A DNA stretch of 39,385 bases from assembly GCA_013336225.1 (NCBI GenBank), contig JAAXUC010000009.1, positions 1 to 39,385 on the forward strand, written 5' to 3'. The translations under genes and the position numbers were made by a program. Numbering within the stretch: the stretch's first letter is position 1; each line of letters begins with the position of its first letter. Below, in pieces: positions 15,064 to 30,219 of this stretch. The DNA comes from Candidatus Moraniibacteriota bacterium (GTDB lineage: Bacteria; Patescibacteriota; Minisyncoccia; Moranbacterales; GWC2-37-73). The notes beneath the pieces were generated by a model, which worked only from the letters and a program-made list of their open reading frames with translations, had not been told where the DNA came from and searched no databases.

Positions 15064-16187
15064 AAATGCAAACTCTAAAATTTCATCCTGTGAAATTGAA
15101 TCAATATTTAATTGGGGCATCTTTATTCTTGATCTCATTCTTCATGCTGCCAAGTTTTGTGAGCGCGGCACCGGAAATACTTGCGCCCACTCCGACAACC
15201 ATTTCAAATGCTGAGAGTGTTGCAATTTCTGGCAGTGGATTTGGAGCAAAAAGTGTTGCCTTGCCAATCAAGTGGGATAATTTTGAATCTGGCGCAGATG
15301 GAGATGATCTTGCTGGTTGGTCGCTTTCCAGTTCAGGTGGACCAAATCCTAAATATTCAACAAGTAGAAAACATGCCGGCTCAAGCGCTGGCATGGCACA
15401 ATTTTTTGGTTCCAATTACAATTGCTCTGCCTACATGGGACTTAATGATCTGAGTGAAGTATATTTTTCTTATTGGGTTTTTATAGAGCATGTCAGTGGT
15501 GATGTTAGTCGCAATATTAAAACAGCCAGAGCTGTCGGGAGTGTCGAATACAAAGATCCGAATGTCACGATGCCTGGCATGGGAGTGACGCATCTCAATG
15601 AAAATCCAGCTTTGTATTACTGGAGTCCAAATGATTTGAACACTACCAGTAGATATCCAATCGATCATGGGATATCTGTACTTACTCTTGGCGGATGGCA
15701 TCATATTGAAATGTATGGCAAAGCATCTGATGTAGACATTGCAAATGGAGCGATTAAATTTTGGGACAATGGCGTGGAAGCTTGGAATAAAACAGATGCA
15801 ATCACTGTTACGAGTCAGCAGGCACCGCCTCAATCGCATACTTATAAAAATTTTGTGCTTCCTTTTTATGTGGCGCATGATCAAGGTGGGGATTATAACA
15901 TCTATTATGATGATGTTTATGTTGACAACACGCAGGCGCGTATCATGCTTTGCGCTGGAAATGCCTGGAGTAATCGCGCTCACTGCGAAATTCAAAATCC
16001 AACTGCTTGGTCGGACACATCCTCTGCTGTCACAATAAATCAAGGAGCATTTTTGGATGGCACAACAGCATATCTGTATGTGGTGGACGAAAACGGTGAT
16101 GTAAATTCAAGTGGCTATAGTGTGACCTTATCAGGTGTCTTGGATGTGACTGCGCCCAGTGCGCCGACTGGTCTTGGGGTGATTTAA
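15060..16187 (+). CDS. Secreted array protein A: TIG-like start, jelly-roll body, conserved tail
   Basis: 375 residues. First of ten array genes, with a 4-nt ATGA overlap to the DUF4012 gene. The N-terminus is a longer variant of the array signal peptide, with a basic extension and c-region LPSFVSAAP. After a short IPT/TIG-like strand (VAISGSGFGAKS) comes a concanavalin-like jelly-roll (about 60-285; LGGWHHIEMYGKAS), then a module VYVDNTQARIMLC..HCEIQ with two Cys and a strand-rich end (GAFLDGTTAYLYVVDENGD). It ends DVTAPSAPTGLGVI-stop. Genes at 16222, 24903, 27695 and 28920 share this plan. Extracellular carbohydrate binding is an inference from the fold. Confidence 0.85.
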   Translation: MKMQTLKFHPVKLNQYLIGASLFLISFFMLPSFVSAAPEILAPTPTTISNAESVAISGSGFGAKSVALPIKWDNFESGADGDDLAGWSLSSSGGPNPKYSTSRKHAGSSAGMAQFFGSNYNCSAYMGLNDLSEVYFSYWVFIEHVSGDVSRNIKTARAVGSVEYKDPNVTMPGMGVTHLNENPALYYWSPNDLNTTSRYPIDHGISVLTLGGWHHIEMYGKASDVDIANGAIKFWDNGVEAWNKTDAITVTSQQAPPQSHTYKNFVLPFYVAHDQGGDYNIYYDDVYVDNTQARIMLCAGNAWSNRAHCEIQNPTAWSDTSSAVTINQGAFLDGTTAYLYVVDENGDVNSSGYSVTLSGVLDVTAPSAPTGLGVI

Positions 16188-16200
16188 AAAGGTAGAAAGG

Positions 16201-16226
16201 TTATAAAGTTTATCAAGAAATATGCA
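16201..16226 (+). promoter_or_regulatory. Conserved leader motif before array gene B
   Basis: TTATAAAGTTTATCAAG followed by AAATATGCA, including the start codon. Close relatives lie at 18111-18138, 26048-26076, 28896-28925 and 30118-30145. No Shine-Dalgarno sequence is present. Confidence 0.5.
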
Positions 16227-18090
16227 AAATAAAATTCCAAAAATATTTTTATTCTCTGCCGCATTTTTAATGCTGCCAAATTTTGTGTGGGCGGCACCTT
16301 CAATCACAAGTGCAACAATCGATGGTGCAACATTGAACATCGCTGGCGCAAATTTTGGAACGAAGATAAGCAATGATTCAGCTCCGATCAGATTTGAAAA
16401 ATTCAATTCAGTCGATGTTGGGAAAGATATTGGAGAAGTTTCAAATAATTGGTGGAATGACGCAGTAAACTCATCTGAGAAAACTGGTGAAGTTTCGATT
16501 GAGAAACAAAGGACTTCTGATTCAGCCTCCTTGGATATGAGCATTTATCCATCAGCCTCAAATACAATTTTTGATCCAGCTGCTGAAGGCAGTATTTCAA
16601 GAACATTTGTCAGGAATAAAATTGGATTTGCTGATACACATAAAATCTTTTTAAATTTTTGGATGTATACCGATTTTTCCAATAATATGTTAAATGAAAA
16701 CATAGATACGCAATTGAAGTTTATTCATATGGCGACAGGAAAAACAAATTTTGGATACAACACGTATGGTCTTTCTCAGCGCGCGTATAGTTTTTGGGAG
16801 CAATCAGAACCAAATAGTGATTATATAGGCTCAAGCACTTATATACCAAAGGGATCAACGGGAGCTACCATCGGCGGTGGCTGGGCTAATTCTTTGGGAA
16901 GTAACTATAATATTTTTAATGCAGAGGGTTGGTATAATATGCAAGTTGAGTTTGACCAGGGAACTGTCGGGGTTGCAAATGCCAGTGAAAAAGTTTCAAT
17001 TGTTGGACCTAATTATGCAAAATACGGAGTTTCTTCTCAATCTGGAAAAGTTGCCATCACAGCCTCTCCTCAGTGGTATTCCGGCATAGACAATGTTGGA
17101 AGTGTTTGGTATAACGGCAAAAAATATTATCATTATTCTGATACTTTTGCGTGCGCCAGAGTTATCCCGGGAGATTTGCAATCTGATTGTTTGACTCCAG
17201 ATTTAGACACCTTGGCATGGAGGGAAACTACGGACACTGATTATATTGACTCTTTGAATTTTTGGTTATGGTCTCAAAAAAGGGATAGCAATAATTGGAA
17301 TCAATCGTACAAAATATTGATTCAATCCGGGACATATATTTATAGTGGCAATTCTTATGAAATAGTTAGTAGTGGAACAATAGACTTCTCAACTATTGGA
17401 GCTGTCAATAATAATCCAGGTACAATTTTTATAAACACTTCAACAAGGGCTCTTGGTGCAGGGGACTCACTAAGAAGAATTGAATTATATGAAGCAGGCG
17501 CAAAAGTTGATTTGATTGATGATGAAATTTTAACAGCTGGTCAATCCTTAACTCCGGGATTCATATATCAAATAATAAGCAACGCATCCTCCTTTAACGT
17601 GACTGGAAAAGGATATCGAGATGGTTGGACTGATCGAGTCATGGCAACTTCTGCTGGCGTTCTTTTGCCGGGGGAAATTGTTGCCAGGGTTTATGGTTAT
17701 CGTTGTACTGGTGATATTAACTCAAACATTTCTCCAAACATTGATTCTGCACACTGGACCAAGGTCTCTGAAAATCCCTGGCCAAGTAGCACGACGAAAG
17801 TTTTTCTGGATGCTTTATATATTGACAATTCTTTTGCTCGAGTTGAGATAGGCGACAATGCAGTTTATGAAAATTGCACGCATCGAGAAATTCAGCCAAC
17901 AACAACTTGGGATGCAAGTGGAAATATAATCTTAGCTAATATTAATAAGGGTTCTTTTGCGGATGGTGCGGGTGCATATCTTTTTGTGATTGACGAAGAT
18001 GGAACTCCAAGTGCTGGTTTCCCAATCACATTTGCCACTAGTGGTGACGTGATTGCGCCCAGTGCGCCTAGCGGACTTGGGGTGAACTAG
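16222..18090 (+). CDS. Secreted array protein B: largest TIG-like/jelly-roll member
   Basis: 622 residues. Signal peptide with c-region LPNFVWAAP, then SITSATIDGATLNIAGANFG, nearly the same opening as gene 24903. The central part is about 250 residues longer than in the other family members and includes a jelly-roll with many Asn, Tyr and Trp residues and an extra strand-rich block (about 370-500). The end module (ALYIDNSFARVEI, GSFADGAGAYLFVIDEDGT) matches gene 27695 closely even at the nucleotide level. It ends DVIAPSAPSGLGVN-stop (TAG). It looks like a mosaic: head like 24903, tail like 27695. Secreted; ligand unknown. Confidence 0.85.
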   Translation: MQNKIPKIFLFSAAFLMLPNFVWAAPSITSATIDGATLNIAGANFGTKISNDSAPIRFEKFNSVDVGKDIGEVSNNWWNDAVNSSEKTGEVSIEKQRTSDSASLDMSIYPSASNTIFDPAAEGSISRTFVRNKIGFADTHKIFLNFWMYTDFSNNMLNENIDTQLKFIHMATGKTNFGYNTYGLSQRAYSFWEQSEPNSDYIGSSTYIPKGSTGATIGGGWANSLGSNYNIFNAEGWYNMQVEFDQGTVGVANASEKVSIVGPNYAKYGVSSQSGKVAITASPQWYSGIDNVGSVWYNGKKYYHYSDTFACARVIPGDLQSDCLTPDLDTLAWRETTDTDYIDSLNFWLWSQKRDSNNWNQSYKILIQSGTYIYSGNSYEIVSSGTIDFSTIGAVNNNPGTIFINTSTRALGAGDSLRRIELYEAGAKVDLIDDEILTAGQSLTPGFIYQIISNASSFNVTGKGYRDGWTDRVMATSAGVLLPGEIVARVYGYRCTGDINSNISPNIDSAHWTKVSENPWPSSTTKVFLDALYIDNSFARVEIGDNAVYENCTHREIQPTTTWDASGNIILANINKGSFADGAGAYLFVIDEDGTPSAGFPITFATSGDVIAPSAPSGLGVN

Positions 18091-18110
18091 AAAAGTAAAA
18101 AGTTTTTAAA

Positions 18111-18138
18111 GTTCATAAAGTTTATCAAGTAAAATGCA
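18111..18138 (+). promoter_or_regulatory. Array leader motif with an orphan start codon
   Basis: The leader motif ends in ATGCA (ATG at 18134), as before genes B, H and J, but no signal peptide follows. Gene C starts 47 nt further on with its own -10 element. This looks like the remnant 5' edge of a lost or replaced unit. Confidence 0.5.
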
Positions 18139-18162
18139 AATGCGGAATATCAAAATAAAATA

Positions 18163-18171
18163 TGATATAAT
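18163..18171 (+). promoter_or_regulatory. Extended -10 promoter, near-leaderless, for array gene C
   Basis: TGATATAAT (extended -10) ends 9 nt before the ATG at 18181, so the transcript would start about 2-3 nt before the start codon. Confidence 0.55.
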
Positions 18172-18180
18172 AATAGTAAT

Positions 18181-21100
18181 ATGCAAAAATACATTTTCAA
18201 AATAATTTTTCTATTTGTAATCTTTTTGACAGTGCCAAACTTCGTGCAGGCGGCACCAGAAGTTGCAAACAATGGAATTGATGAAGATGGCGATGGTTGG
18301 CTGGGGACAACTGGTGGTTATCAAATCCGCGCTTCTCATCCAAGAGTGCTCTTGGATTCAACGATGCTCTCTCAAACGATTGATCGCATGTATGGAGCGA
18401 ATGCTCGCGAACCATATGCAAGTTGGTTTAATTTGATTAAGGCGAAAGAAGATACTTTGCATAATGTGGATTTGGCTAATTTAGCTTTAATTTATAAGGC
18501 CACTGGCTTGCAAGTTTATAAAGACAGATTCATTGCTTCAATTCCAGCAACTGGCGAGCCATGGCTGACTGAATTGTATGCGCTGGATATTATGTTTGAC
18601 GATTTGGACGCCGCGGTCAAAACAAATGTTGTCCAGAGGATGAATGCTGTCGGATCAAATGTTTTTTATTATAATTCAGTTAATGAATCAAACAATGCGG
18701 CCCTTTCATCCTGGGGATATCATAGTCCTATTGGGGTGACTCGAGCTTTGGCGTACGCAGGCTTGTTCGCTTATTCGGGCTTTGAATCGGGTTCAACCTT
18801 TAATGTTAACAATTATTTTGCCAGTGCCAAAAAAGAACTCTATCCTGGCGGAAATTTTTATAACATCGAAAGAAGGGTTGGTGGTGACCCAACACATAAT
18901 GATGCGTTGCCGGGAAGTTTTGGTGGGATGTATGATAATTTTGGCTATGATGGCGGAGAAGATTCTTACGGAATTGATATGTTCTTGCAATATAAAAATT
19001 TGACTGGCGAGAATGTGGCCGAAAGTTTTTTGCGTGACAAATATCGAGGAGATTTTTATCAAAACATGCAATATCCTTATCATTTCAATTATTCTGCCGT
19101 GGATACATATTGTATGCGGGCTGGCACTGAAGCACATTGGCTGGCAAATATTTGGAATACGCAAACGGATTATAGTACTCAGCCTCAAGCGGATACGGTT
19201 TCGCCATTGTCTTCAATCTATCAAGATAAGAGAATGCAATATTTTGCTAATAATGGATACAATCGAGTTCTTTGCGGACATGAATACGAAGGTATGTTTT
19301 GGGATTTGATTTTTTATGATGACAACTTGTCAGAGGAAGCGCCAGCAACCAATCCAACGGCCAAATATTTCAATGGCCCTGGCTTGGTTTCTATGCGCAG
19401 TGACTGGACGAACGATGCTTTGTTCAGCGTTTTGGTTGCTGGGGAGGGAATCAGTCGGCGCTATGAAGATGGCAATTCATTTTTATTGGGCAGAAAAGCG
19501 CACGTGGTGGTGCAAGCAGGCGCACGCATCAGGGGAAATGCTGACAATGAAAAAGAGCATTGGTATGCAATTCGCAGCGCTTCTAAAAATACGATGAAAA
19601 TTTTTGATCCACAAGAAAGTTTTGATATCAATGCAGATGGAACCACAAAAACTTTGCACGCTGGCACCTTGCTTGTTCCTTCTGACAATTTGGGCGGTCA
19701 AATTTTTGAAACAAATCCTTCAAAAACTGACGAATGCTATTATGCTCCAGATGGATCAACTGGGGCTTGTGCTGCTTCGCTTACTCGTGGATCATCGGCA
19801 TTTCCATTGGGCGTCTATGAGACAGCCAATGTGACAAAGTTTGAACACAATCCAACGGCAGGCTACACCTATTCGGTGGGGGACGCTACTGCGGCCTACA
19901 CTAAGAAAATAGATTTTTTTGAAAGAGAATTCTTGTATTTGCGTCCTGACAAGTTGGTCATTTTTGACCGTGTGAAATCAGTTGATCCGAATTACAAAAA
20001 AGTTTGGACGATTCACACTGTGGATGAACCGGTGGCGCAAAGTGTGCCAAATGAAACTGGACTTGGCATGAAAGCCAATACCAATAATGTTTCAGCTATA
20101 ATTTCCAATCCATTAAATACAACCTACATCGATTCGCTTTTGCCAAAACAAAACAAAGTTGTCACCAGGGGCGGCGACACTGCCTTGGTCAAGGAAAAAC
20201 CATTAAGAACTGGTCAGGACATTGCCAGTCAGGACATTGCAATTGCCAATACTGACATTCCGCGTTGGCTGGAATTTTTGGGTGTTGGAGCTGATGGAAT
20301 AGGTTCACTTGTTGTCAGTGGTGCAACTCAAGAAGGAGACACGGCTGAAACAATCAATTTTATTGGAAAAATTCAAACTGATGCTGATGCGCGTCCAGGC
20401 AGCATGACATCAACATTGTTGACTGACACCACCAAAAAATGGATCCCTGATCAATGGAAAAATTATGGCATTCGGACTCAATGTGCTGGCAATGTCTATG
20501 AATCAATCATTACGGCAAATACTGCCACCACCATTACTGCAACATTCCCCAGCACTTCTTGTTGGGAATATCAGGTTTACAAATATGTCGCCAATTCATA
20601 TAAGCATTGGAACAGAATTGACAGCATCACAACTTCCAATCTTGATTTCAATTATTTGACTGTTTCAGTCCCGCATTATTTCGATGCGATGGGGGCCAAT
20701 GGAAAATTGTATAATTTTGCCCCACACACTGATCAAGTCAATGATTATTATGCCAAGAGGAAAGACTTGGGACAATGGACTTTTGAAGTGGAAGCCACGC
20801 AGCCGCAACTCTTGGACAACTTTTTGAATGTGATGTCACTTAAAGATCCTGGAGTTTCAAACAGTGACAATAGATTGATTGAGGGAGCTGGTTTTTCAGG
20901 GGTGGTGGTTGATGATCAATTTGCAATTTTTGCCAATGACAAAGTAAATCTGACTTCCATTGATGTGACAATTCCTAAAAATGGGAATTTGACAGGCTTG
21001 TTTTTGGATTTGACTCCTAATACAAATTATTATTACAAAACAGTTGGCAATGTGGTTTCTTTTTCTTCCACAAACAATGGTGGCAGCCTGGTGACAAGTT

Positions 21101-21189
21101 CAGCCATGGGCACGGCAAATGTCAACGTCGCTATCTTGGGAAATGACATCACTGCTCCCAGCGCACCGAGTGGATTTTTAGTGATGTAA
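18181..21189 (+). CDS. Secreted heparinase II/III-like polysaccharide lyase (array protein C)
   Basis: 1002 residues. Array signal peptide (VPNFVQAAP) is followed by an acidic NGIDEDGDGW loop like a calcium-binding repeat. It then has the opening of heparinase II/III-like proteins (SHPRVLLDSTML), an alpha-toroid-like region (about 50-400, with SSWGYHSPIGVTRALAYAG and GTEAHWLANIW), and a beta-sandwich region (LLGRKAHVVVQAGARIRGN, FEREFLYLRPDKLVIFDRV). These match the usual order for lyases that cleave uronic-acid polysaccharides by beta-elimination. Substrate and active state cannot be read with confidence; Tyr and His candidates lie in the two toroid motifs. It is the only clear enzyme of the array and ends DITAPSAPSGFLVM-stop. 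Confidence 0.8.
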   Translation: MQKYIFKIIFLFVIFLTVPNFVQAAPEVANNGIDEDGDGWLGTTGGYQIRASHPRVLLDSTMLSQTIDRMYGANAREPYASWFNLIKAKEDTLHNVDLANLALIYKATGLQVYKDRFIASIPATGEPWLTELYALDIMFDDLDAAVKTNVVQRMNAVGSNVFYYNSVNESNNAALSSWGYHSPIGVTRALAYAGLFAYSGFESGSTFNVNNYFASAKKELYPGGNFYNIERRVGGDPTHNDALPGSFGGMYDNFGYDGGEDSYGIDMFLQYKNLTGENVAESFLRDKYRGDFYQNMQYPYHFNYSAVDTYCMRAGTEAHWLANIWNTQTDYSTQPQADTVSPLSSIYQDKRMQYFANNGYNRVLCGHEYEGMFWDLIFYDDNLSEEAPATNPTAKYFNGPGLVSMRSDWTNDALFSVLVAGEGISRRYEDGNSFLLGRKAHVVVQAGARIRGNADNEKEHWYAIRSASKNTMKIFDPQESFDINADGTTKTLHAGTLLVPSDNLGGQIFETNPSKTDECYYAPDGSTGACAASLTRGSSAFPLGVYETANVTKFEHNPTAGYTYSVGDATAAYTKKIDFFEREFLYLRPDKLVIFDRVKSVDPNYKKVWTIHTVDEPVAQSVPNETGLGMKANTNNVSAIISNPLNTTYIDSLLPKQNKVVTRGGDTALVKEKPLRTGQDIASQDIAIANTDIPRWLEFLGVGADGIGSLVVSGATQEGDTAETINFIGKIQTDADARPGSMTSTLLTDTTKKWIPDQWKNYGIRTQCAGNVYESIITANTATTITATFPSTSCWEYQVYKYVANSYKHWNRIDSITTSNLDFNYLTVSVPHYFDAMGANGKLYNFAPHTDQVNDYYAKRKDLGQWTFEVEATQPQLLDNFLNVMSLKDPGVSNSDNRLIEGAGFSGVVVDDQFAIFANDKVNLTSIDVTIPKNGNLTGLFLDLTPNTNYYYKTVGNVVSFSSTNNGGSLVTSSAMGTANVNVAILGNDITAPSAPSGFLVM

Positions 21190-21217
21190 AAACGATGTAC
21201 GTACATAGAAAAATAAA
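21190..21217. repeat. GATGTAC-type spacer, short form (after gene C)
   Basis: The 28-nt spacer begins AAAACGATGTACGTACAT and includes the perfect palindrome ATGTACGTACAT. Longer relatives follow genes E (23688), F (24799) and H (27656). Confidence 0.6.
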
Positions 21218-22183
21218 ATGAAAAAACAAATTCTGAAAATATTTTTCCTTCTTGCTATTATTTTAGGCTTGCCGAATTTTGCCAGTGCTGCACCAGGAGA
21301 CATTCTTTGGCAAGCAAATTTTGACCATGGCACACCTTCTGATCCAAAGTCGGTGGTTTTGGCGGATGGAGGAGTTGTTTGGAGTTCATTGAATTTCAAT
21401 GCATTTACTTCAGTTCCAAGTGCTGGAGGCTGGGATGATGGCTCGTATTTGCATAAGGTTCATTCATCAGCAGCCACTGATTACACTGGTTCAGGTTTTT
21501 CTTCATTTCATTTTACTCCAAAAAGTGAAGCAACTTTCGTATATTGGGAGAGATATCAAAGTGGCACAACAACCTTGTGGAATAATAAGGGAAGTCGTGT
21601 GCGTGATACTGGCAATTATTATTATGGCGCAATCATGAGTCAATGGAACCTTAGTTATGATTCTTGTTTACTCCCTGGATGTTCAACCATCGGCCCAGCT
21701 CTATATATGTCAAATGACAGTGCTGGCACAGGAGGTCCAACCTCATGGACTTTGGTGCCAACAAACGCGGTTACCTCAATTGATGCGAATGCTGGATATT
21801 GCACTTTTCTGGGAAATAATCAATATGCTTGTCCGGGCAGGGTGGCCTTGCATTGGACAACAGATGGGGGTGTGACAGAGAATTTTGGAGAAAACAAATG
21901 GCACAAATTCAGAATATATTCCAAGGTGCCATCCTCCAATGTTGCTTCAGACGGATTGATCATGCTTTGGATCGATGATGTCTTGGTTTATACTTTGCAA
22001 GATATTTCAAGTTCTCTAACGGGTGGAAATCTCTTGAGTCATATAGAATTTTATCCATCAGAAACAACTGATGGAAGTTTTGTTCATGATTATGATGACA
22101 TTGTTATATATGAAGGATATGTTCCGCCAAGCGGTACTGACACTGTCCCGCCAAGTGCACCAACCGAGTTGGGTGTGAATTAA
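21218..22183 (+). CDS. Secreted jelly-roll (LamG-like) array protein D
   Basis: 321 residues, the shortest member. Signal peptide with c-region LPNFASAAP. The mature protein starts directly with a jelly-roll (DILWQANFDHGT; NKWHKFRIYSKVPSSN; LIMLWIDDVLVYT; VHDYDDIVIYEGY), the pattern of concanavalin-like lectin or lyase domains, without the TIG-like opening of the A-type proteins. Its tail, DTVPPSAPTELGVN, is the most divergent (Glu in place of the usual Gly), and its downstream spacer belongs to neither repeat class. Probably an exported glycan-binding protein. Confidence 0.82.
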   Translation: MKKQILKIFFLLAIILGLPNFASAAPGDILWQANFDHGTPSDPKSVVLADGGVVWSSLNFNAFTSVPSAGGWDDGSYLHKVHSSAATDYTGSGFSSFHFTPKSEATFVYWERYQSGTTTLWNNKGSRVRDTGNYYYGAIMSQWNLSYDSCLLPGCSTIGPALYMSNDSAGTGGPTSWTLVPTNAVTSIDANAGYCTFLGNNQYACPGRVALHWTTDGGVTENFGENKWHKFRIYSKVPSSNVASDGLIMLWIDDVLVYTLQDISSSLTGGNLLSHIEFYPSETTDGSFVHDYDDIVIYEGYVPPSGTDTVPPSAPTELGVN

Positions 22184-22211
22184 ACATATAAACAAATATT
22201 GATATATAAAA

Positions 22212-23687
22212 ATGCAAATAGACTTTCTTAAAATTTTTTTCTTACTCGCAATCTTTTTCATGCTGCCGAATTTTGCCAGTGCGGCTAATTTTCCCTTGGA
22301 AATTACCAACATCAAACCTGCTGGCACGGGCAGTCCGGCGATTCCTGCAGCCAATCGAATTTTCAGAGCTTATCCAGATATTGAATACAACATTCGCGCC
22401 GCTGTTATCGGCGGAGTTTATCCCTACACTTTTTCTCTCAGCAATGCGCCTTCAGGAATGGATATTTCTGAAAATGGGACGATCACATGGATTCCATCAT
22501 CAGAAATATACAATGCTGATCCAATGACGGTTGAGTCAATAATTCTGACAGTCACTGATTTTGTGGGGGAACAGATTCAAACCACCTGGTCAATTGAAGT
22601 CACTAAGGGCGGATTTCATTTTATAGACGCATCCTATGTGGGATTATCAATTGGTGATTTCGAGCAGCCATATAAGTCTGCTTCGGAAATGCTGCAAGGA
22701 TTGTCAGATTTAAGTCGTAATGATATTGTGTATTTTCGGGGAGGATCGTATATATTGAGCCAATATGGACCTGATGCCGGTTATGTTTTTATGGGAGGCG
22801 TGCAAGCTGGATATTATCGTCCATCGGCGTGGTTGGGATATCCGAATGAAAATGTATCGATTGATAATAATAAGCTCATAATTAGAACGGACACATTGTG
22901 GTTGGATAATATCAATTTCAGCAACATGGATTATTATGGTTTTTGGTTGTATGGAAGCACTGGACATTACAGTGCAATTCGCAGATCATCATTTAGTGGT
23001 TTCACAAATTCAGTAGCTCAAAACAATAATCAAGGAATTATCTACGCTTCCGGTGGAGCAACAAGTAACCGTGGATATGGTCTCACTGTTCAAGACAATG
23101 AGTTTTCGAATTATTCTGATGGTCAGGCCATTGGCAGCTTATACAATGGCATCAACACCCTGATTGAAGACAATTACATTCATGATGGTGGGACATATAG
23201 CGTGCTTGCATTCTGTTCGCCCATAGGAATAAAGGCGCGTAATTCATATTACGCGATTAGGCACAACAGAGTAATTATGCCTGGCAGCGCTTCAAATTAC
23301 GATATATATAATGAATTGGCACAACCAGACAATGCGGAATTTTCCTATAATTACGTCTTAAAGTCCTCAGGTGGCAACGGAAAGGCGCTAGTTGTTTTTT
23401 ATCCGACTAATTTGTATCTATATCGCAATACGATTATTGGAAATGTTGAGTTTTATCCTTTATTGAGTGCTGGACCAATTGCATTTAACAATAACGTGCT
23501 GATAGGGAATTTGATTAATGGTGTTAATGTGACCTCATTAAATAATTTAATTGGCAGCGCTGACATTGTTGATGTGAATGGCTTACTGATTAATCGCTCT
23601 GATGTGGGAATATACGGTTGGGAAACAGCAAATGGTTCTGGCGATGTGATTGCGCCCAGCGCACCGAGTGGATTTTTAGTGATGTAA
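22212..23687 (+). CDS. Secreted Ig-like plus beta-helix array protein E
   Basis: 491 residues. Signal peptide with c-region LPNFASAAN. Residues about 28-135 resemble a cadherin-like/He_PIG Ig domain (NAPSGMDISENGTITWIPSS). Residues about 140-470 resemble a right-handed parallel beta-helix: the entry motif HFIDASYVG..SIGDFEQPYKS, DIVYFRGGSYIL, repeated Asn/Gly turns (IEDNYIHDGG, IRHNRVIMPG) and a closing DVGIYGWE. This architecture occurs in polysaccharide lyases and surface adhesins. It is a paralogue of gene 26072; the first 45 or so codons and the last 30 are much more alike than the middle. It ends DVIAPSAPSGFLVM-stop. Confidence 0.83.
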   Translation: MQIDFLKIFFLLAIFFMLPNFASAANFPLEITNIKPAGTGSPAIPAANRIFRAYPDIEYNIRAAVIGGVYPYTFSLSNAPSGMDISENGTITWIPSSEIYNADPMTVESIILTVTDFVGEQIQTTWSIEVTKGGFHFIDASYVGLSIGDFEQPYKSASEMLQGLSDLSRNDIVYFRGGSYILSQYGPDAGYVFMGGVQAGYYRPSAWLGYPNENVSIDNNKLIIRTDTLWLDNINFSNMDYYGFWLYGSTGHYSAIRRSSFSGFTNSVAQNNNQGIIYASGGATSNRGYGLTVQDNEFSNYSDGQAIGSLYNGINTLIEDNYIHDGGTYSVLAFCSPIGIKARNSYYAIRHNRVIMPGSASNYDIYNELAQPDNAEFSYNYVLKSSGGNGKALVVFYPTNLYLYRNTIIGNVEFYPLLSAGPIAFNNNVLIGNLINGVNVTSLNNLIGSADIVDVNGLLINRSDVGIYGWETANGSGDVIAPSAPSGFLVM

Positions 23688-23742
23688 AAACGATGTACGA
23701 CGGATGTACTTATATAATAAAAATAAATTCAAGATAACGTGA
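23688..23742. repeat. GATGTAC-type spacer after gene E
   Basis: Contains GATGTACGACGGATGTACTT, that is, two GATGTAC units 11 nt apart, followed by an AT-rich run shared with the spacer after gene H. The promoter of gene F is embedded at its end. Confidence 0.6.
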
Positions 23743-23748
23743 TATAAT
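23740..23748 (+). promoter_or_regulatory. Extended -10 promoter, leaderless, for array gene F
   Basis: TGATATAAT is followed by 6 nt and the ATG at 23755. The expected transcript start coincides with the start codon. The same arrangement precedes gene G. Confidence 0.65.
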
Positions 23749-23754
23749 ATAGAA

Positions 23755-24798
23755 ATGCAAAAACAAATTTTCAAATTATTTTTATTTTCAACATTCTTTT
23801 TAGCATTGCCAAATCTTGCAAATGCCGCTGAAGATTTGACAAATATCACAAATAATGACGGCACCATATATTTTGCGCATGATTTTGAAACTGGAAATAT
23901 TGTACCAGATCAAGGCACTGGTTCAATAATCCTCTTGGGAGGCAATGTTAACAAGCCACTGGGTGATTATAGCTCCAGCTGCACTACTGATACTAATAAT
24001 TTTCACTACAGTTATTTTTCAAATGCTGTTGCCGCGCAGGGGTCAAATGGAGGTTCCTTGCAAAGCTTAATTACACCATATCTTGGCAATTGTCCCAATG
24101 AGGCATTTTTGCGCGACACCACAGTTGTCAGCACTCCCTTGCTGTCAGAGTATTACGTCAGATGGTATCAAAAATGGACTGGCAGTTTTGAAGCCAGTGT
24201 GCAACAAAAATTTGCCAAGTTTTATAATTCTGAAAATCTCAATGAAAAAACTTTGACAGGGCATCTCACAATGAGACCAAACAATTCTGCAGGAACAACA
24301 CCTGGTGCGACAATGGGCAGGTTTGAGAATTTTATGCCAAATCTCGAAAATCATTTTGATAAGGATGGATGCACTCCTGCAAGTGGAAATATCTGGATTT
24401 CGCCTGTGCCATTCGCTGGTTGCTATGCTGGTCAAAACAGGGGTTATGATGATTCATTAAGCACCACTAGTGATATAGACTTGGAGCTGAACCGTTGGTA
24501 TGTCATTGAGATACATTCAAAATTAAATACTGATCCAGCTTTGTCTGATGCTGTGTATGAAATCTGGATTGATGGAGTTTTGAGATTTGCTGCATATAAT
24601 TTTAAATTTAAAGATGGTTTATTGTTCAATACGCCTGGAACCAATCAATTTGAATTTCAGCATGTCTATTATAATCGTTCAAATCAAGACCAATCAACTT
24701 ATATGGACAATCTCGTTATTGCTGATAGATATATTGGCCCAGTAAATTCATTCGATGTGATTGCGCCCAGTGCGCCGAGTGGACTTTTGGTGATGTAA
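23755..24798 (+). CDS. Secreted jelly-roll array protein F (polysaccharide-lyase-like fold)
   Basis: 347 residues. Signal peptide with c-region LPNLANAAE. The mature protein starts DGTIYFAHDFETGN and contains SEYYVRWYQKWTGSFEASVQQKFAKFY, then RWYVIEIHSKLNTD and YEIWIDGVLRF, the strand order of a concanavalin-like jelly-roll like that of several polysaccharide lyase families. Six Cys in the mature chain could form disulfides. It is only distantly like the A-type proteins. It ends DVIAPSAPSGLLVM-stop. Binding or lyase activity cannot be decided from sequence alone. Confidence 0.82.
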   Translation: MQKQIFKLFLFSTFFLALPNLANAAEDLTNITNNDGTIYFAHDFETGNIVPDQGTGSIILLGGNVNKPLGDYSSSCTTDTNNFHYSYFSNAVAAQGSNGGSLQSLITPYLGNCPNEAFLRDTTVVSTPLLSEYYVRWYQKWTGSFEASVQQKFAKFYNSENLNEKTLTGHLTMRPNNSAGTTPGATMGRFENFMPNLENHFDKDGCTPASGNIWISPVPFAGCYAGQNRGYDDSLSTTSDIDLELNRWYVIEIHSKLNTDPALSDAVYEIWIDGVLRFAAYNFKFKDGLLFNTPGTNQFEFQHVYYNRSNQDQSTYMDNLVIADRYIGPVNSFDVIAPSAPSGLLVM

Positions 24799-24890
24799 AA
24801 AAGTGATGTACGACTGATGTACGTACATCTCACACTTAGTTTAATGTGTGGATATGTTGAAAAGCAGAAAACAAATTCAATATAAAGTGG
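24799..24890. repeat. GATGTAC-type spacer after gene F, long form
   Basis: Two GATGTAC units plus the ATGTACGTACAT palindrome, then a small inverted repeat (CACACTT near 24829 with AATGTGTG near 24843). It ends in the promoter for gene G. Confidence 0.6.
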
Positions 24891-24896
24891 TATAAT
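24888..24896 (+). promoter_or_regulatory. Extended -10 promoter, leaderless, for array gene G
   Basis: TGGTATAAT is followed by 6 nt and the ATG at 24903. The region from about 24870 is very similar to that before gene F. Confidence 0.65.
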
Positions 24897-24902
24897 ATAG
24901 AA

Positions 24903-25979
24903 ATGCAAAAACAAATTTTCAAATCCTTATTTTTTCTTACGATATTTTTAATATTGCCGAATTTTGTTTGGGCTGCACCTTCGATCACAAGTGCAACAAT
25001 CAATGCTGGAACACTTAGCATTATTGGCACAAATCTTGGGACAAAAACAACTCCAGCTCCTGTTTTATGGGACAATTTCAATGCTGAAACAAGTGGTAAT
25101 ATCATCAATACAAATGGATGGATACCAGATGCAGGCAATAGTCCTGTTTATAGCTCAATCCGTGCGCATTCGGGAAGTGTGTCAGCTCTGACGCAATTTG
25201 TTGGGGTGGATAATTATTCCTCCATCACAAGACACCCTATAGGGAATTTGTCGACAATCTATTATTCTTTCTGGGTTTATGTTGAGAGAGTTGGTGGTGT
25301 GGCAAGTCGTAATATTAAACTCACCCGCGTGAGTTCATCGGGAGGGACTGATCTTATTCATAGCACTCCCAATATTGGTGCTACAGTTTTTTATGATGCA
25401 GTTTCACCTGCTTATTATATTCAATCCGGCACTGGCACTGACGTCACATATTATGACCCTCGTGACATCAATGCTCCTTCTGACGTAGGAAGATGGGCTA
25501 AAATGGAATTCTACATTAAACTTTCCAGCACTCCAGGTGCTGCTGATGGTGAGATTCAAACCTTCATGGATGGATATCAAATTAGAAATTCCGTGGGAGA
25601 TGTGACTTTGGGAATTTCACCAAACGGAACAACATTTCAAAATTTGACGTTAAGTTTTTATGTGGCTCATGATGTTGGCGGAGATTATTACATCTATAAT
25701 GATGATATCTATCTTGATAATACCAGAGCTAGAGTGGAATTGTGCCCCAATGTTGCCTGGGCAACTCGCGGACAATGTGAAACTCAAATTCCAAGCGCTT
25801 GGAACGCTGGTCAAATCACAGCCAACTTTAATGATGGAGCATTGCTGGGTGGTGTAAATGCGTATGTCTATGTGGTTGATGAAAACGGAAATGTAAATGC
25901 TGATGGCTATGCAATAACATTGCCAGGTGTTTTGGACGCGACTCCGCCCAGTGCGCCGACTGGGCTCGGGGTGATTTAA
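24903..25979 (+). CDS. Secreted array protein G: TIG-like/jelly-roll type
   Basis: 358 residues. Signal peptide with c-region LPNFVWAAP. It opens SITSATINAGTLSIIGTNLG, close to gene 16222, followed by VLWDNFNAETSG and a jelly-roll (VGRWAKMEFYIKLSS, IQTFMDGYQ). The end module reads IYLDNTRARVELC..RGQCETQ and ALLGGVNAYVYVVDENGN, closest to gene 15060. Tail DATPPSAPTGLGVI-stop. The mix of closest relatives at the two ends suggests recombination between array members. Extracellular; ligand unknown. Confidence 0.84.
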   Translation: MQKQIFKSLFFLTIFLILPNFVWAAPSITSATINAGTLSIIGTNLGTKTTPAPVLWDNFNAETSGNIINTNGWIPDAGNSPVYSSIRAHSGSVSALTQFVGVDNYSSITRHPIGNLSTIYYSFWVYVERVGGVASRNIKLTRVSSSGGTDLIHSTPNIGATVFYDAVSPAYYIQSGTGTDVTYYDPRDINAPSDVGRWAKMEFYIKLSSTPGAADGEIQTFMDGYQIRNSVGDVTLGISPNGTTFQNLTLSFYVAHDVGGDYYIYNDDIYLDNTRARVELCPNVAWATRGQCETQIPSAWNAGQITANFNDGALLGGVNAYVYVVDENGNVNADGYAITLPGVLDATPPSAPTGLGVI

Positions 25980-26071
25980 AAAAGCAAAAAGTCCACCCCA
26001 TTAAATCCAGTGAATATGATGCGAAGCAATTTAATTTGGGCAGATTAAGTTTTTAAAGCTTGTTAAGTAAA
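25980..26071. repeat. Hairpin-bearing array spacer, copy 1 (G to H)
   Basis: The outer stem CCCC-ATTAAAT (25996-26006) pairs with ATTTAAT-TTGGG (26029-26040). The inner hairpin is degraded relative to the copies at 28829 and 30051. The stem base that is G-C in those copies is A-T here, a compensatory change. The leader motif (26048-26076) follows. Confidence 0.65.
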
Positions 26072-27655
26072 ATGCGAAAACAAATTCTAAAATTATTCTT
26101 ATTCTTGTTAGTGTTTTTCATGCTGCCAAATTTTGCCAGTGCGGCTAATTTTCCCTTGGAAATTACCAATATAAAACCTGCTGGCACGGGCAGTCCGGCG
26201 ATTCCGGCAACCAACCGAATTTTCAGAGCTTATCCGGGGATTGAATATAATATTCGGGCTGCGGTGATTGGCGGAATGTATCCTTTCAAATTTTTACTTA
26301 GCAACGCACCAGTTGGGATGATTATCAATGAGGACACCGGGGAAATTTCTTGGCCTAACCCCCAGGCAAATTCTGGCACCATCACGCTTTCAGTGACAGA
26401 TGCCGAAAATACTGTCGTGACAACTTCTTGGGCAATTGCTGTTTCAACTGTTGGATTTTATTTTGTGGATGCAAACGCGCCAACCAATGGAACAGGAGCC
26501 ATTGCCAGCCCCTTTAATTCTTTGAGTAATATGATTGCTGGAACTGGAGCTGCACATTTGACTGACATTTTGTATTTTAGGGGTGGAAATTATCCTCTCG
26601 TGGCAAGTGGAACTGATTGTGGTGGTGTTTGCAACTCTTTAAAGTTGACTGATAATGCACCATTCACGTGGATAGGTTATCCCAATGAGGCGGTGAATAT
26701 TTCTGGAAATAATGACGTTGAGATAAGAGCTTATCAATTTTGGTATGATAATTTGAATTTCAGTGATTTTAATTATCATGGTATAGAAGGACAGGGTGGG
26801 CGAGATTTTCAAACAATTCGCAGATGCAAATTCATTAATTTGGTTGCTGTTAACACTGGGACAAACTTGAATGAAGGTTTCATCTATATCAACAGGGGAA
26901 CTCCACAGGGCTATGGTTTAATCATCCAAGATAATGAGTTTAGTTATTTTACCGGCGGTTCTGGAATAGGCAGCTTGTATGATACAAACAAGGCGCTTAT
27001 TGAAGATAATTATATTCACGATGCTGGGGGAATTGGCGTTGGGTCTGGGGTGAATTCAGCCATTGGCATTAAGGATAATGATGACAGGATGACGGTACGG
27101 CATAACAAGATAATAATTCCAAATGGAGTATCTATTTTTGGCAATGCCATGAATGCTCAAATGGCCGAAGTTGATGATCTGGAAGTGGCTTTTAATTATT
27201 TCAATATTGGCGCTAATAAGCTCGCGCATGAATTTTTTGAAAGACCAGATCTTCCACAAAAGGTTTTATATTATTATCGCAATACTCTTGTTGGGGCGCT
27301 GGGCTTTGCTTATATAGATGGCTCGAATTGCACCATGAGAAATACTGTTCCATTATCACCGTTGGGCGCGGTGGAAGTGAAAAATAACATTCTTATTAAT
27401 ACGGGTACAGTTTTTGCTGGGACAACTTGGATATTAAATAGTGGCCTAGTGTATCATCCAACAAGTACTGCCAATTCGCCTTGGCTCTGCGTGACCGACG
27501 TTAGCAACCTTAAATCAGCTAGTACAACTGGAATAATCGATTCAGATGGTTTGCTAGTTAATCGTTCTGATGTGGGAATCTATGGCTGGGAAGCAGCAAA
27601 TGGTTCTGGCGATGTGTTTGCGCCCAGCGCACCGAGTGGACTTTCGGTGATGTAA
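26072..27655 (+). CDS. Secreted Ig-like plus beta-helix array protein H
   Basis: 527 residues from the ATG at 26072; an upstream in-frame TTG at 26060 lies in the conserved leader and is unlikely to be the start. Signal peptide with c-region LPNFASAAN. The Ig-like domain (NAPVGMIINEDTGEISW) is followed by a beta-helix (YFVDANAPTNGTGAIASPFNS, DILYFRGGNYPL, IEDNYIHDAGG) closing with DVGIYGWEAAN. It is a paralogue of gene 22212: the first 150 nt and last 100 nt are nearly identical, while the middle has diverged and differs in length. Tail DVFAPSAPSGLSVM-stop. A surface glycan-binding or lyase-like role is inferred from the fold. Confidence 0.84.
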   Translation: MRKQILKLFLFLLVFFMLPNFASAANFPLEITNIKPAGTGSPAIPATNRIFRAYPGIEYNIRAAVIGGMYPFKFLLSNAPVGMIINEDTGEISWPNPQANSGTITLSVTDAENTVVTTSWAIAVSTVGFYFVDANAPTNGTGAIASPFNSLSNMIAGTGAAHLTDILYFRGGNYPLVASGTDCGGVCNSLKLTDNAPFTWIGYPNEAVNISGNNDVEIRAYQFWYDNLNFSDFNYHGIEGQGGRDFQTIRRCKFINLVAVNTGTNLNEGFIYINRGTPQGYGLIIQDNEFSYFTGGSGIGSLYDTNKALIEDNYIHDAGGIGVGSGVNSAIGIKDNDDRMTVRHNKIIIPNGVSIFGNAMNAQMAEVDDLEVAFNYFNIGANKLAHEFFERPDLPQKVLYYYRNTLVGALGFAYIDGSNCTMRNTVPLSPLGAVEVKNNILINTGTVFAGTTWILNSGLVYHPTSTANSPWLCVTDVSNLKSASTTGIIDSDGLLVNRSDVGIYGWEAANGSGDVFAPSAPSGLSVM

Positions 27656-27694
27656 AAAAGTGATGTATGACTGATGTACTTATATGATAAAAAT
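27656..27694. repeat. GATGTAC-type spacer after gene H, with -10-like element
   Basis: Has the GATGTAT-GAC-TGATGTAC arrangement. A TATGAT hexamer (27683-27688) lies 6 nt before the ATG at 27695, again placing the likely transcript start on the start codon. Confidence 0.55.
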
Positions 27695-28828
27695 ATGAAA
27701 ATAAAATTTATTAAATTATTTCTTCTCTTTGCAATCTTTTTTGTGGCGCCAAATTTTGCAAGTGCAGCTCCTGTTATCACTTCTGTTCCGACAGTGATTT
27801 TGGATGAGCAAAGCGTTTCCATTGCTGGCAGTGGCTTTAAAACAAAAACAAATGCAGCCCCAGTTTATTGGGATAATTTTGAAGCGTATACGGCTGGACT
27901 CGCTCCAACTGCTGGTGGTTGGGTTGTTAGGGCTGGAACCCCAGCCATTTCAACTGAGAAATCTTATGCTGGCACGCAAGCAGTCAGATTTTTTAATGAC
28001 AGCACAGCATTTCAGCAGTTGTCGCGAGATATGGGCACAACCTTTTCCGATGAAACTTTCTTTAAAGGTAAGATATATCTGGACAACACTAATAATGCTT
28101 GCGACGAATATCAATGGAAAAATTTGAGATTTTCAAGTTCGCCTGGTGCTTATGCCATCAATGAAGAAGGAAACACAGCTATTGTTTTAATGGATTCATG
28201 GTACAACGCCACAACTACGCGTTGGTTTAACAGTGGAAGTCCACATGTTTATTACAACGGTGGACTAAGCAGTAGCACGCTTGGTGCACCAGATGATTTG
28301 TTTAAATTCAATCAATGGTTTGATTTCGAGTTCAAGCTCAAGAGATCCAGTGCGCCAAGTGCGCCAGATGGCTCAGTGAGGATTGATATCGATGAGGTTC
28401 AAAAGTCCATCAAGACAGATTTCATCACGCATGATGCTGATGATGGAGTTTATAGGTACATGTTGATGGGTGGAAGCATAGTTTCCTGCAGAGATATCAA
28501 TGATGTTCCTATGAATCCTAATTTCAAGATATATTATGATGATCTGTATGTTGACAACACTCAGGCGCGCGTGGAAATTTGCAACAGTGCAACTTGGGCA
28601 TCGCGTACACATTGTGAAATTCAACCCACCACTGCTTGGCCTACAGCTGGAAATCCAACGGCAAATATTGAAGTTACGGTGAATCAAGGTTCTTTTGCGA
28701 ATGGTGCAGGTGCCTATCTTTTTGTGATTGACGAAGATGGAACTGCAAGTGCTGGCTTCCCAATCGCATTTGCCACCAGTGGCGATGTGACTGCTCCTAG
28801 TGCGCCGACTGGTCTTGGAGTAAATTAA
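27695..28828 (+). CDS. Secreted array protein I: TIG-like/jelly-roll type
   Basis: 377 residues from the ATG at 27695; the upstream in-frame ATG at 27674 lies in the spacer repeat, ahead of the -10-like element. Signal peptide with c-region APNFASAAP. TIG-like opening (SVSIAGSGFKTK), then VYWDNFEAYTAG, a jelly-roll (KFNQWFDFEFKLKRSSAPSA, VRIDIDEVQ), LYVDNTQARVEIC..RTHCEIQ and GSFANGAGAYLFVIDEDGT. The last 140 nt are close to gene 16222 at the nucleotide level. Tail DVTAPSAPTGLGVN-stop. Secreted; carbohydrate binding is inferred. Confidence 0.84.
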   Translation: MKIKFIKLFLLFAIFFVAPNFASAAPVITSVPTVILDEQSVSIAGSGFKTKTNAAPVYWDNFEAYTAGLAPTAGGWVVRAGTPAISTEKSYAGTQAVRFFNDSTAFQQLSRDMGTTFSDETFFKGKIYLDNTNNACDEYQWKNLRFSSSPGAYAINEEGNTAIVLMDSWYNATTTRWFNSGSPHVYYNGGLSSSTLGAPDDLFKFNQWFDFEFKLKRSSAPSAPDGSVRIDIDEVQKSIKTDFITHDADDGVYRYMLMGGSIVSCRDINDVPMNPNFKIYYDDLYVDNTQARVEICNSATWASRTHCEIQPTTAWPTAGNPTANIEVTVNQGSFANGAGAYLFVIDEDGTASAGFPIAFATSGDVTAPSAPTGLGVN

Positions 28829-28919
28829 CAAAGTAAAAAGTTTACCCTGTTAAATCCAGCGAAGCTGGTGCGAAGCAATTTAACTGGGCGAATCAATTTT
28901 TTAAAGTTTATCAAGCAAA
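28829..28919. repeat. Hairpin-bearing array spacer, copy 2 (I to J)
   Basis: Outer stem CCCTGTTAAAT (28845-28855) with ATTTAACTGGG (28878-28888) and inner perfect hairpin CCAGC-GAA-GCTGG (28856-28868). It is flanked by AAAGTAAAAAGTT on the left and the array leader motif (28896-28925) on the right. Confidence 0.7.
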
Positions 28920-30050
28920 ATGCAAAAACAAATTTTCAAAATATTATTTCTGCTTACAATCTTTTTTGTGGTGCCGAATTTTGTTTTGGCTGCACCAAGC
29001 GTGAATGCAATTGCCGAAACACTCACGCATGGAAATGTACTGACAGTTGGTGGCTCTGATTTTGGCTCAAAGATAAACATAGCTACTCCGTTGGTGTGGG
29101 ATGATTTTAATGTTGGCAATGATGGAGATTTGCTCAGTGTGCATGGTTGGAATGTTGGCACTGACAATATTCTCTCTGAAAGACCGCAACTCTCCTCCAA
29201 CAAATTGCGTCATGTAAATACGAATAATGTGGCCAAATTTTATTTCACTCGAAATCCTTCCTATTATGCGGAAGATGTTGCATGGCGCGACGAGCTTCCG
29301 GTTGTTGGAAAAAAACGATATGTCGACTATTGGATGTGGTATGAAATGCCGATTCAGCCCATGGGGCAAGAAGCTCATCAATTGAAATTAGTAAGAATGC
29401 AAAGTGGTCCAGGGGAGAGCACTGATAATGTCAATTTTCCAACAATAAACACCTACGCTTGGAGATATAATGGTGGCGTGCGAGAATTGTATTTTCCGAT
29501 TTATTCAAACTTGACTGATTCCGAAAGTATTTATACGACTCCTTTTTTGGATGGTAGTTGGGTTCATGTGAAGATGTGGATAGATGTGGGAACAGAAAAC
29601 AATAATGATGGAATATTGAAAGTCTGGTCTAATGGCAGCGTGCTTTTCGACAGGGCTGATATCAAACATATTGCAACTGGATATGGCTTAAAAAATTGGT
29701 ATGATAATTTTCAGATAGGGAAATATCTTGGCAACACTCCAACGCAAGATGTGGAAACGACAATATATTTTTCTGATGTTTATTATGACACCTCTTGGGC
29801 AAGAGTGGAGATTGGTGACAATCAAATTTATAATAATTGCTCACACACTGAAATACAGATTCCAAGCAGTTGGAGTGACAATGCTATAGATATAAGAATT
29901 AATGCTGGCAGTTTTGCTACTAATGCAAATGCCTATTTGTTCGTCATTGATGCCGATGGTAATGCAAGCGCTGGTCAACTGATTACGATTGATGGTGCAA
30001 CATCTGACGCAACGCCGCCCAGTGCGCCGACGGGTCTTGGCGTAAATTAG
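28920..30050 (+). CDS. Secreted array protein J: TIG-like/jelly-roll type, last of the array
   Basis: 376 residues. Signal peptide with c-region VPNFVLAAP. TIG-like opening (VLTVGGSDFGSK), then LVWDDFNVGNDGD and a jelly-roll (YVDYWMWYEMP, WVHVKMWIDVGTENNND, LKVWSNG). The end module VYYDTSWARVEI..NCSHTEIQ resembles gene 16222 in lacking the first Cys. It ends GSFATNANAYLFVIDADGN and SDATPPSAPTGLGVN-stop (TAG). The downstream spacer is another full copy of the hairpin repeat but leads into no further array gene. Exported; ligand unknown. Confidence 0.84.
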   Translation: MQKQIFKILFLLTIFFVVPNFVLAAPSVNAIAETLTHGNVLTVGGSDFGSKINIATPLVWDDFNVGNDGDLLSVHGWNVGTDNILSERPQLSSNKLRHVNTNNVAKFYFTRNPSYYAEDVAWRDELPVVGKKRYVDYWMWYEMPIQPMGQEAHQLKLVRMQSGPGESTDNVNFPTINTYAWRYNGGVRELYFPIYSNLTDSESIYTTPFLDGSWVHVKMWIDVGTENNNDGILKVWSNGSVLFDRADIKHIATGYGLKNWYDNFQIGKYLGNTPTQDVETTIYFSDVYYDTSWARVEIGDNQIYNNCSHTEIQIPSSWSDNAIDIRINAGSFATNANAYLFVIDADGNASAGQLITIDGATSDATPPSAPTGLGVN

Positions 30051-30145
30051 CAAAGTAAAAAGTTCACCCCGTTAAATCCAGCGAAGCTGGCGCGAAGCAA
30101 TTTAACTGGGTGAATCAAGTTTATAAAGTTTATCAAGCAAAATGC
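30051..30145. repeat. Hairpin-bearing array spacer, copy 3, at the array edge
   Basis: The most perfect copy: outer stem CACCCCGTTAAAT (30065-30077 approx.) with ATTTAACTGGGTG (30100-30112), inner hairpin CCAGC-GAA-GCTGG, then the leader motif ending in ATGCA (30118-30146). Confidence 0.7.
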
Positions 30146-30219
30146 AGGATACGAAATACGAAATACGAAATACGAAATACAAATTCGTCAGCATTGTCAT
30201 GAGTGTGTTTTTGCATTAA
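30142..30219 (+). pseudogene. Orphan start codon and 25-codon remnant ORF at array edge
   Basis: The ATG sits exactly where an array gene would start after the leader motif, but similarity to array genes stops after ATGCA. The frame (beginning MQDTKYEIRNTKY) runs through a 7-bp tandem repeat and stops at 30217-30219. No signal peptide is encoded. It is best read as the scar of a lost array member or the boundary of the duplicated unit. Confidence 0.4.
30150..30183. repeat. Tandem repeat of TACGAAA (four full units plus a partial one)
   Basis: Units at 30150, 30157, 30164 and 30171, then TACAAA. It directly follows the orphan array leader. Confidence 0.85.

Follow-up and report, generated by a model that had tools for sequence, protein, structure and literature searches.

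At least 33 genes of the Candidatus Moraniibacteriota genome studied here, and more in its relatives, end in a 14-residue motif, D-x-x-[AP]-P-x-x-P-x-G-L-x-V-x-stop, which is very probably a selected C-terminal tag. The motif lies at the exact C-terminus, is conserved at the level of the protein, and co-occurs across genomes with Fn3 domains that lack strand A. From sequence comparison, it is possible, if a little short of an even chance, that the 3' ends of these genes are kept since they encode a functional C-terminal tag that docks as strand A on a strand-A-less Fn3.

Description

The window, which is the entire contig C6 (39,385 bases), comes from a genome of 1.11 Mb in 31 contigs and contains ten genes, A to J, arranged head to tail on one strand (+) at 15060-30050, with what we take by our own reading to be glycosyltransferase-like genes on one side and a MurJ-like gene on the other. 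All ten proteins are secreted, their bodies are partly unrelated, and every one ends in the tail. Five bodies are homologous (local BLOSUM scores 136-556), namely those of gene A (15060-16187; tail DVTAPSAPTGLGVI, 16143-16184) and gene J (28920-30050; tail DATPPSAPTGLGVN, 30006-30047), each with a weak Polysacc_lyase match, gene B (16222-18090; tail DVIAPSAPSGLGVN, 18046-18087), gene G (24903-25979; tail DATPPSAPTGLGVI, 25935-25976), a paralogue of A, and gene I (27695-28828; tail DVTAPSAPTGLGVN, 28784-28825). Genes E (22212-23687; tail DVIAPSAPSGFLVM, 23643-23684) and H (26072-27655; tail DVFAPSAPSGLSVM, 27611-27652) are paralogues of each other with a He_PIG Ig domain match, weak in E and at 7.1e-06 in H. 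The bodies of C, D and F are unrelated to the others in the body comparison. Gene C (18181-21189; tail DITAPSAPSGFLVM, 21145-21186) encodes a heparinase II-like lyase matching NF045571 (1.2e-25, under the family cut-off) and PDB 2fuq (2.6e-14), gene D (21218-22183; tail DTVPPSAPTELGVN, 22139-22180) a secreted protein, and gene F (23755-24798; tail DVIAPSAPSGLLVM, 24754-24795) a secreted protein for which the family search gave no match. Pairwise local BLOSUM scores among the unrelated bodies C, E/H and F are near 40, which is background, and the signal peptides at the 5' ends are also common to genes with unrelated bodies.

Tail genes of this genome lie on contigs C6, C23, C11, C14 and C8. Among 69 distinct tails taken from the loci, D(-14) is present in 67, G(-5) in 61, L(-4) in 65 and V(-2) in 64; P(-10) and P(-7) occur in all 69, as the search pattern demands, and the pattern also demands one of L/F/I and one of V/I/A, the exact residue being left free. 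Codon entropy over 33 tails is 0.71, 0.54 and 1.44 bits at positions 1, 2 and 3, respectively, and the high variability of the third position therefore points to selection on the protein, not the DNA. When the motif was searched without demanding a stop, 66 of 66 closed ORFs in the loci read end one residue later, a count that is not wholly unbiased in that part of the loci had been fetched with a stop-containing pattern. Secreted proteins from other orders of the class carry tails as well (8 in G237 and 4 in G171).

In a moranbacterial genome (G072), in Nitrospirae and in Gammaproteobacteria the same motif runs on into full Fn3-like sequence, and the P-x-x-L-x-V spacing of the tail is that of strand A in the Pfam consensus of the Fn3 domain. 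A search of the tail profile against PDB sequences returned nothing significant, the best Fn3-like match having an E-value of 7.2. That the motif forms the start of Fn3 domains, which come after it in other bacteria, would also fit a relic, in which an ancestral full Fn3 was lost by stop codons and a functionless stump was left behind. This is very improbable, however, as 33 genes of one genome, and tags in several families, all end on one and the same residue and the motif is conserved as protein, and the spacers behind the tail genes, down to 28 nt in length, hold no decayed Fn3.

Several further features were seen around tail genes. A second cluster at C23:66931-92991 (L042-L043) contains 17 tail genes, whose bodies are of other types, an identical spacer pair at 86755 and 88196, and inserted genes such as one for a Fic-like protein. 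On the reverse strand of L091, past position 5372, the stop of a tail gene is directly followed by another tail-like sequence, CCAAGTGGACTGGCTGTTAACTAG, as if the end had been duplicated. In several genomes, AAA-type ATPase genes, by our reading apparently of the DUF4143 type, interrupt the runs of tail genes like insertions (L087, L089, L091 and L263). Directly upstream of tail genes in G237 are large prepilin-like proteins with an N_methyl match (L265, L266), whose long repeat-type middle resembles secreted repeat proteins.

The candidate receptors of this genome are encoded on contig C22 and not on the window contig. They are a short protein of 129 aa that has a membrane helix at its N-terminus besides an Fn3 domain (C22:26612-27082) and a secreted Fn3 and dockerin protein (C22:27674-28309), which is followed by cohesin- and dockerin-bearing proteins. 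PF00041 scores over its cut-off in several candidate receptors, and in every partner examined the match starts at profile position 13-16, never at 1; none of the candidate receptors was found to carry a complete Fn3 with strand A in one chain. An AlphaFold model of one receptor, built with eight homologues (pLDDT 82), has a TM helix and six strands, which we read as an Fn3 that lacks strand A and has strand B as its first strand; the best Foldseek matches of this model are Fn3 structures. A model of the Fn3-dockerin protein made without an alignment reached a pLDDT of 49 and was set aside. PF00963 is over its cut-off, and PF00404 is over its cut-off in L109:8330-10096 and just under it in the Fn3 proteins. 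Candidate receptor genes adjoin tail genes in G003, G053 and G063; in G171 and G237 none was seen near the tails within the tail loci. On cohesin-like and Fn3 proteins beside receptors (L095, L092, L109) another common C-terminal end is present, GKYSWYAVDTKTGKKSK..Y.VK-like, possibly a separate anchoring module.

Tails were found by pattern search in 10 of the 131 genomes of the order, that of Candidatus Moranbacteria, with 27 matches in the window's genome, compared with one match over all 131 genomes for a backward-pattern control. Matches to the Fn3 portion of the partner profile came from 11 of 131, these being all ten tail genomes and G012 (79% complete), so that strand-A-less Fn3 proteins occur in 10/10 tail genomes vs 1/121 others (Fisher 4e-14, kinship ignored). 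Because the Fn3 query derives from G000, G003, G053 and G063, six of the ten co-occurrences are independent, and these six alone give 6/6 vs 1/121 (about 1e-9, hand calculation); the partner gene of G130 is visible in part only. Tail and Fn3 appear and disappear together within genera: genus g1 has three genomes with both and three with neither, g39 has one with both and six with neither, and g66 has one of each.

A strand-A-less Fn3 after a signal peptide is also present in Portnoybacteria, Proteobacteria and Nitrospirae, and a search for tails in Portnoybacteria and 18 other genomes with such an Fn3 (20 genomes) found none. A missing strand alone is therefore no predictor of tags, which argues against a strict pair, and taken together with the tails of G237 and G171, which have no receptor nearby, it indicates a pairing that is strong in the order and not strict generally. 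The co-occurrence could stem from a common polysaccharide lifestyle. The tail would then serve in sorting or anchoring, recognised by a different dedicated factor, with the Fn3-dockerin protein present through polysaccharide degradation, a reading that is credible but on balance doubtful. Consistent with it are the tag's constant place at the very C-terminus of numerous secreted proteins whose bodies are unrelated, the strand-A-less Fn3 domains without detected tails, and the tails without an Fn3 gene seen nearby. LPXTG and PEP-CTERM signals, like the tail, are short motifs that many secreted proteins of one genome share at their extreme C-terminus. Unlike those signals, however, the tail has no hydrophobic segment or helix and no basic residues after its motif, the protein ending one residue past the conserved V, and no processing enzyme has been identified; furthermore, the tail sequence corresponds to the Fn3 strand A that is absent from the co-occurring receptors, and the window tails are outside every curated family in the family searches.

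Strand complementation, with the strand-A-less Fn3 as receptor of the tail, is the reading we tentatively prefer, at a likelihood somewhat below even. The donor does supply a strand that is absent from the acceptor, as judged by sequence pattern only. The tag would correspond to strand A of an Fn3 plus its linker and, once secreted, would complete a separate Fn3 without strand A, carried either by the short membrane-anchored protein or by the secreted Fn3-dockerin protein beside the cohesin and dockerin proteins. With the mature Fn3-dockerin protein predicted to start at strand B and the enzymes stopping at strand A, the A-B loop would have one of these ends on each side. In this way donor-strand complementation may hold diverse polysaccharide-active proteins on the membrane or on a cohesin scaffold, and their bodies may be duplicated or swapped by homologous recombination at the gene ends. 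More tentatively still, this would amount to a split Fn3 in which the secreted enzymes of a genome, as many as dozens of them, bear a C-terminal strand-A plug for a strand-A-less Fn3 on the membrane or on a dockerin adaptor. Binding, surface fixation and scaffold assembly are what we infer from these patterns. When tail and receptor were fused in silico and compared with Pfam, the Fn3 score was not clearly higher than with shuffled tails (three fusions scored, one of them without a shuffled control).

In chaperone-usher pili, a donor peptide strand at the end of one protein completes the incomplete Ig-like fold of another. The proposed system would be alike in that an end strand completes the fold of another protein, and would differ in using strand A of Fn3 instead of strand G of the pilin fold, in the C-terminal position of the strand, and in joining enzymes instead of pilus subunits. 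It resembles the cellulosome in that cohesin and type I dockerin modules are encoded together in one genome with polysaccharide-active secreted proteins elsewhere in it; in contrast to cellulosomal enzymes, which carry dockerins, the proteins of genes A to J have no dockerin match in a profile search, and the link would instead be made by an Fn3-dockerin adaptor that holds the Fn3 tag. No description of a system of tails and strand-A-less Fn3 domains was found in the literature searched, most subscription journals lying outside that search. The proposed combination of tag and receptor would be a variant of donor-strand complementation and of scaffolded enzymes. If this is true, Candidate Phyla Radiation bacteria, in which the surface attachment of proteins is little known, make bulk use of a naturally occurring split domain, one half as tag and the other as catcher, and patescibacteria have an interchangeable, non-covalent enzyme display. 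The tail would then be a sequence-readable marker of surface-fixed proteins in uncultured bacteria and a short C-terminal tag for protein engineering, and enzyme assembly could be tested directly with peptides and one small domain.

The preliminary description of this DNA concerned the spacers, holding that the spacer class goes with the 3' end of the preceding gene. Within the window the two classes are as described. Genes with tails ending GV[IN] precede AAAGT/leader spacers (all +): A (16188-16221, a degenerate AAAGT start and the leader TTATAAAGTTTATCAAG), B (18091-18180), G (25980-26071, with a TTAAATC...GCAATTTAA palindrome and a degenerate leader), I (28829-28919, with a palindrome, a dispersed genomic repeat) and J (95 nt, 30051-30145, with a palindrome). 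Genes ending VM precede GATGTAC spacers (all +): C (21190-21217, containing the palindrome ATGTACGTACAT), E (23688-23754), F (24799-24902, hairpin z -3.7) and H (27656-27694). Gene D, as had been noted, fits neither class, having a GVN tail and a spacer of its own type. A leader had been described after all GV[IN] genes; the class holds, but G is without the exact leader and the start of A is degenerate.

The two classes differ in their spread. Copies resembling spacer J are present at C8:2335, C21:57753 (-) and C23:22302, and the leader AAAGTTTATCAAG is found at five more genomic sites, none of them at tail genes. Leader and palindrome sit between unrelated genes, which we take by our own reading to include rplA, yebC, argS, hrcA and nrdR. 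The AAAGT/leader spacer is a repeat dispersed between housekeeping genes and is not confined to tail genes, and this occurrence in unrelated parts of the genome, which the preliminary description had named as a refuting result, speaks against its belonging to gene 3' ends, whereas the GATGTAC class is nearly confined to tail genes. The palindrome ATGTACGTACAT lies directly 3' of tail genes at nine of its ten sites, the tenth following another gene at C23:47965. Hairpin folding is seen in many ATGTAC and TTACGTAAC spacers. Both classes resemble REP-like and other palindromic intergenic repeats in their short inverted repeats, often forming hairpins and in part dispersed; the near-exclusive position of ATGTACGTACAT behind tail genes sets it apart from them.

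A 45-nt stretch is identical between genes C and E (21157-21201 and 23655-23699, +), running from inside the tail across the stop into the spacer, although the heparinase-like body of C and the body of E score 41, at background. Between F and H, 22 nt are identical across the stop (24789-24810 and 27646-27667). In a control with same-length stretches just upstream of the tails of unrelated pairs, the longest common match was 15. For these genes the identities support units of 3' end and spacer, and at C/E one 3' end has recombined. Body exchange by recombination at the ends would leave such a linkage of tail and spacer, since signal peptide, tail and spacers are common to the genes. The earlier view that the spacer moves with the 3' end whatever the body therefore stands for C/E and F/H, but not for the GV[IN] class, which follows body homology; gene duplication explains that class with no need for a separate unit, leaving the VM class as the informative one. 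Even here, VM plus stop is written GTGATGTAA; since this sequence already includes the spacer's GATGTA unit, the class of the tail and that of the spacer depend on each other to some extent.

Trees of four gene segments were replaced by distance-matrix (Mantel) tests, tails and spacers being too short for supported trees. The agreement of tail with spacer, as against body, that had been predicted was seen in the window (r 0.58, p 0.0002; r 0.49 once body similarity was removed in a partial test). It weakened with a stricter 60-nt downstream window (r 0.46, or 0.33 with body similarity removed), and in this 60-nt window the partial correlation was 0.25 (p 0.11) when C and E were left out; in cluster C23 it was 0.18 (p 0.056). 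Both this correlation and the C/E and F/H identities between unrelated bodies would be expected if 3' end and spacer formed recombination units and the tail were common mainly as part of recombining DNA. That explanation is unlikely, given that the protein is kept while third codon positions vary, that tails are kept across genera and orders beside unrelated spacers, that AAAGT spacers recur as a general repeat between genes, and that the tail-spacer rule breaks in C23. A selected protein tag remains the preferred account.

Among the 33 tail genes of the same genome, spacers of the ATGTAC, TTACGTAAC or other types stand behind VL tails, an FVQ tail at C23:80133 has an AAAGT spacer 3' of it, and in cluster C23 the tail GLSVL precedes at least three spacer types. 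One tail type thus stands before several spacers, the tail-spacer rule fails as a general one, and exclusive spacer classes were rejected on these C23 combinations. Units of 3' end and spacer have moved at least once, at C/E, and do not follow a general rule. The spacer pattern is real in the window but mostly secondary, and the earlier claim is partly supported and of modest interest; it overlooked the selection on the tail as a protein motif, which recurs in different families and orders irrespective of the spacer behind it. Short GATACGAAATACGAAATAC repeats lie at window positions 30146-30180, immediately 3' of spacer J.
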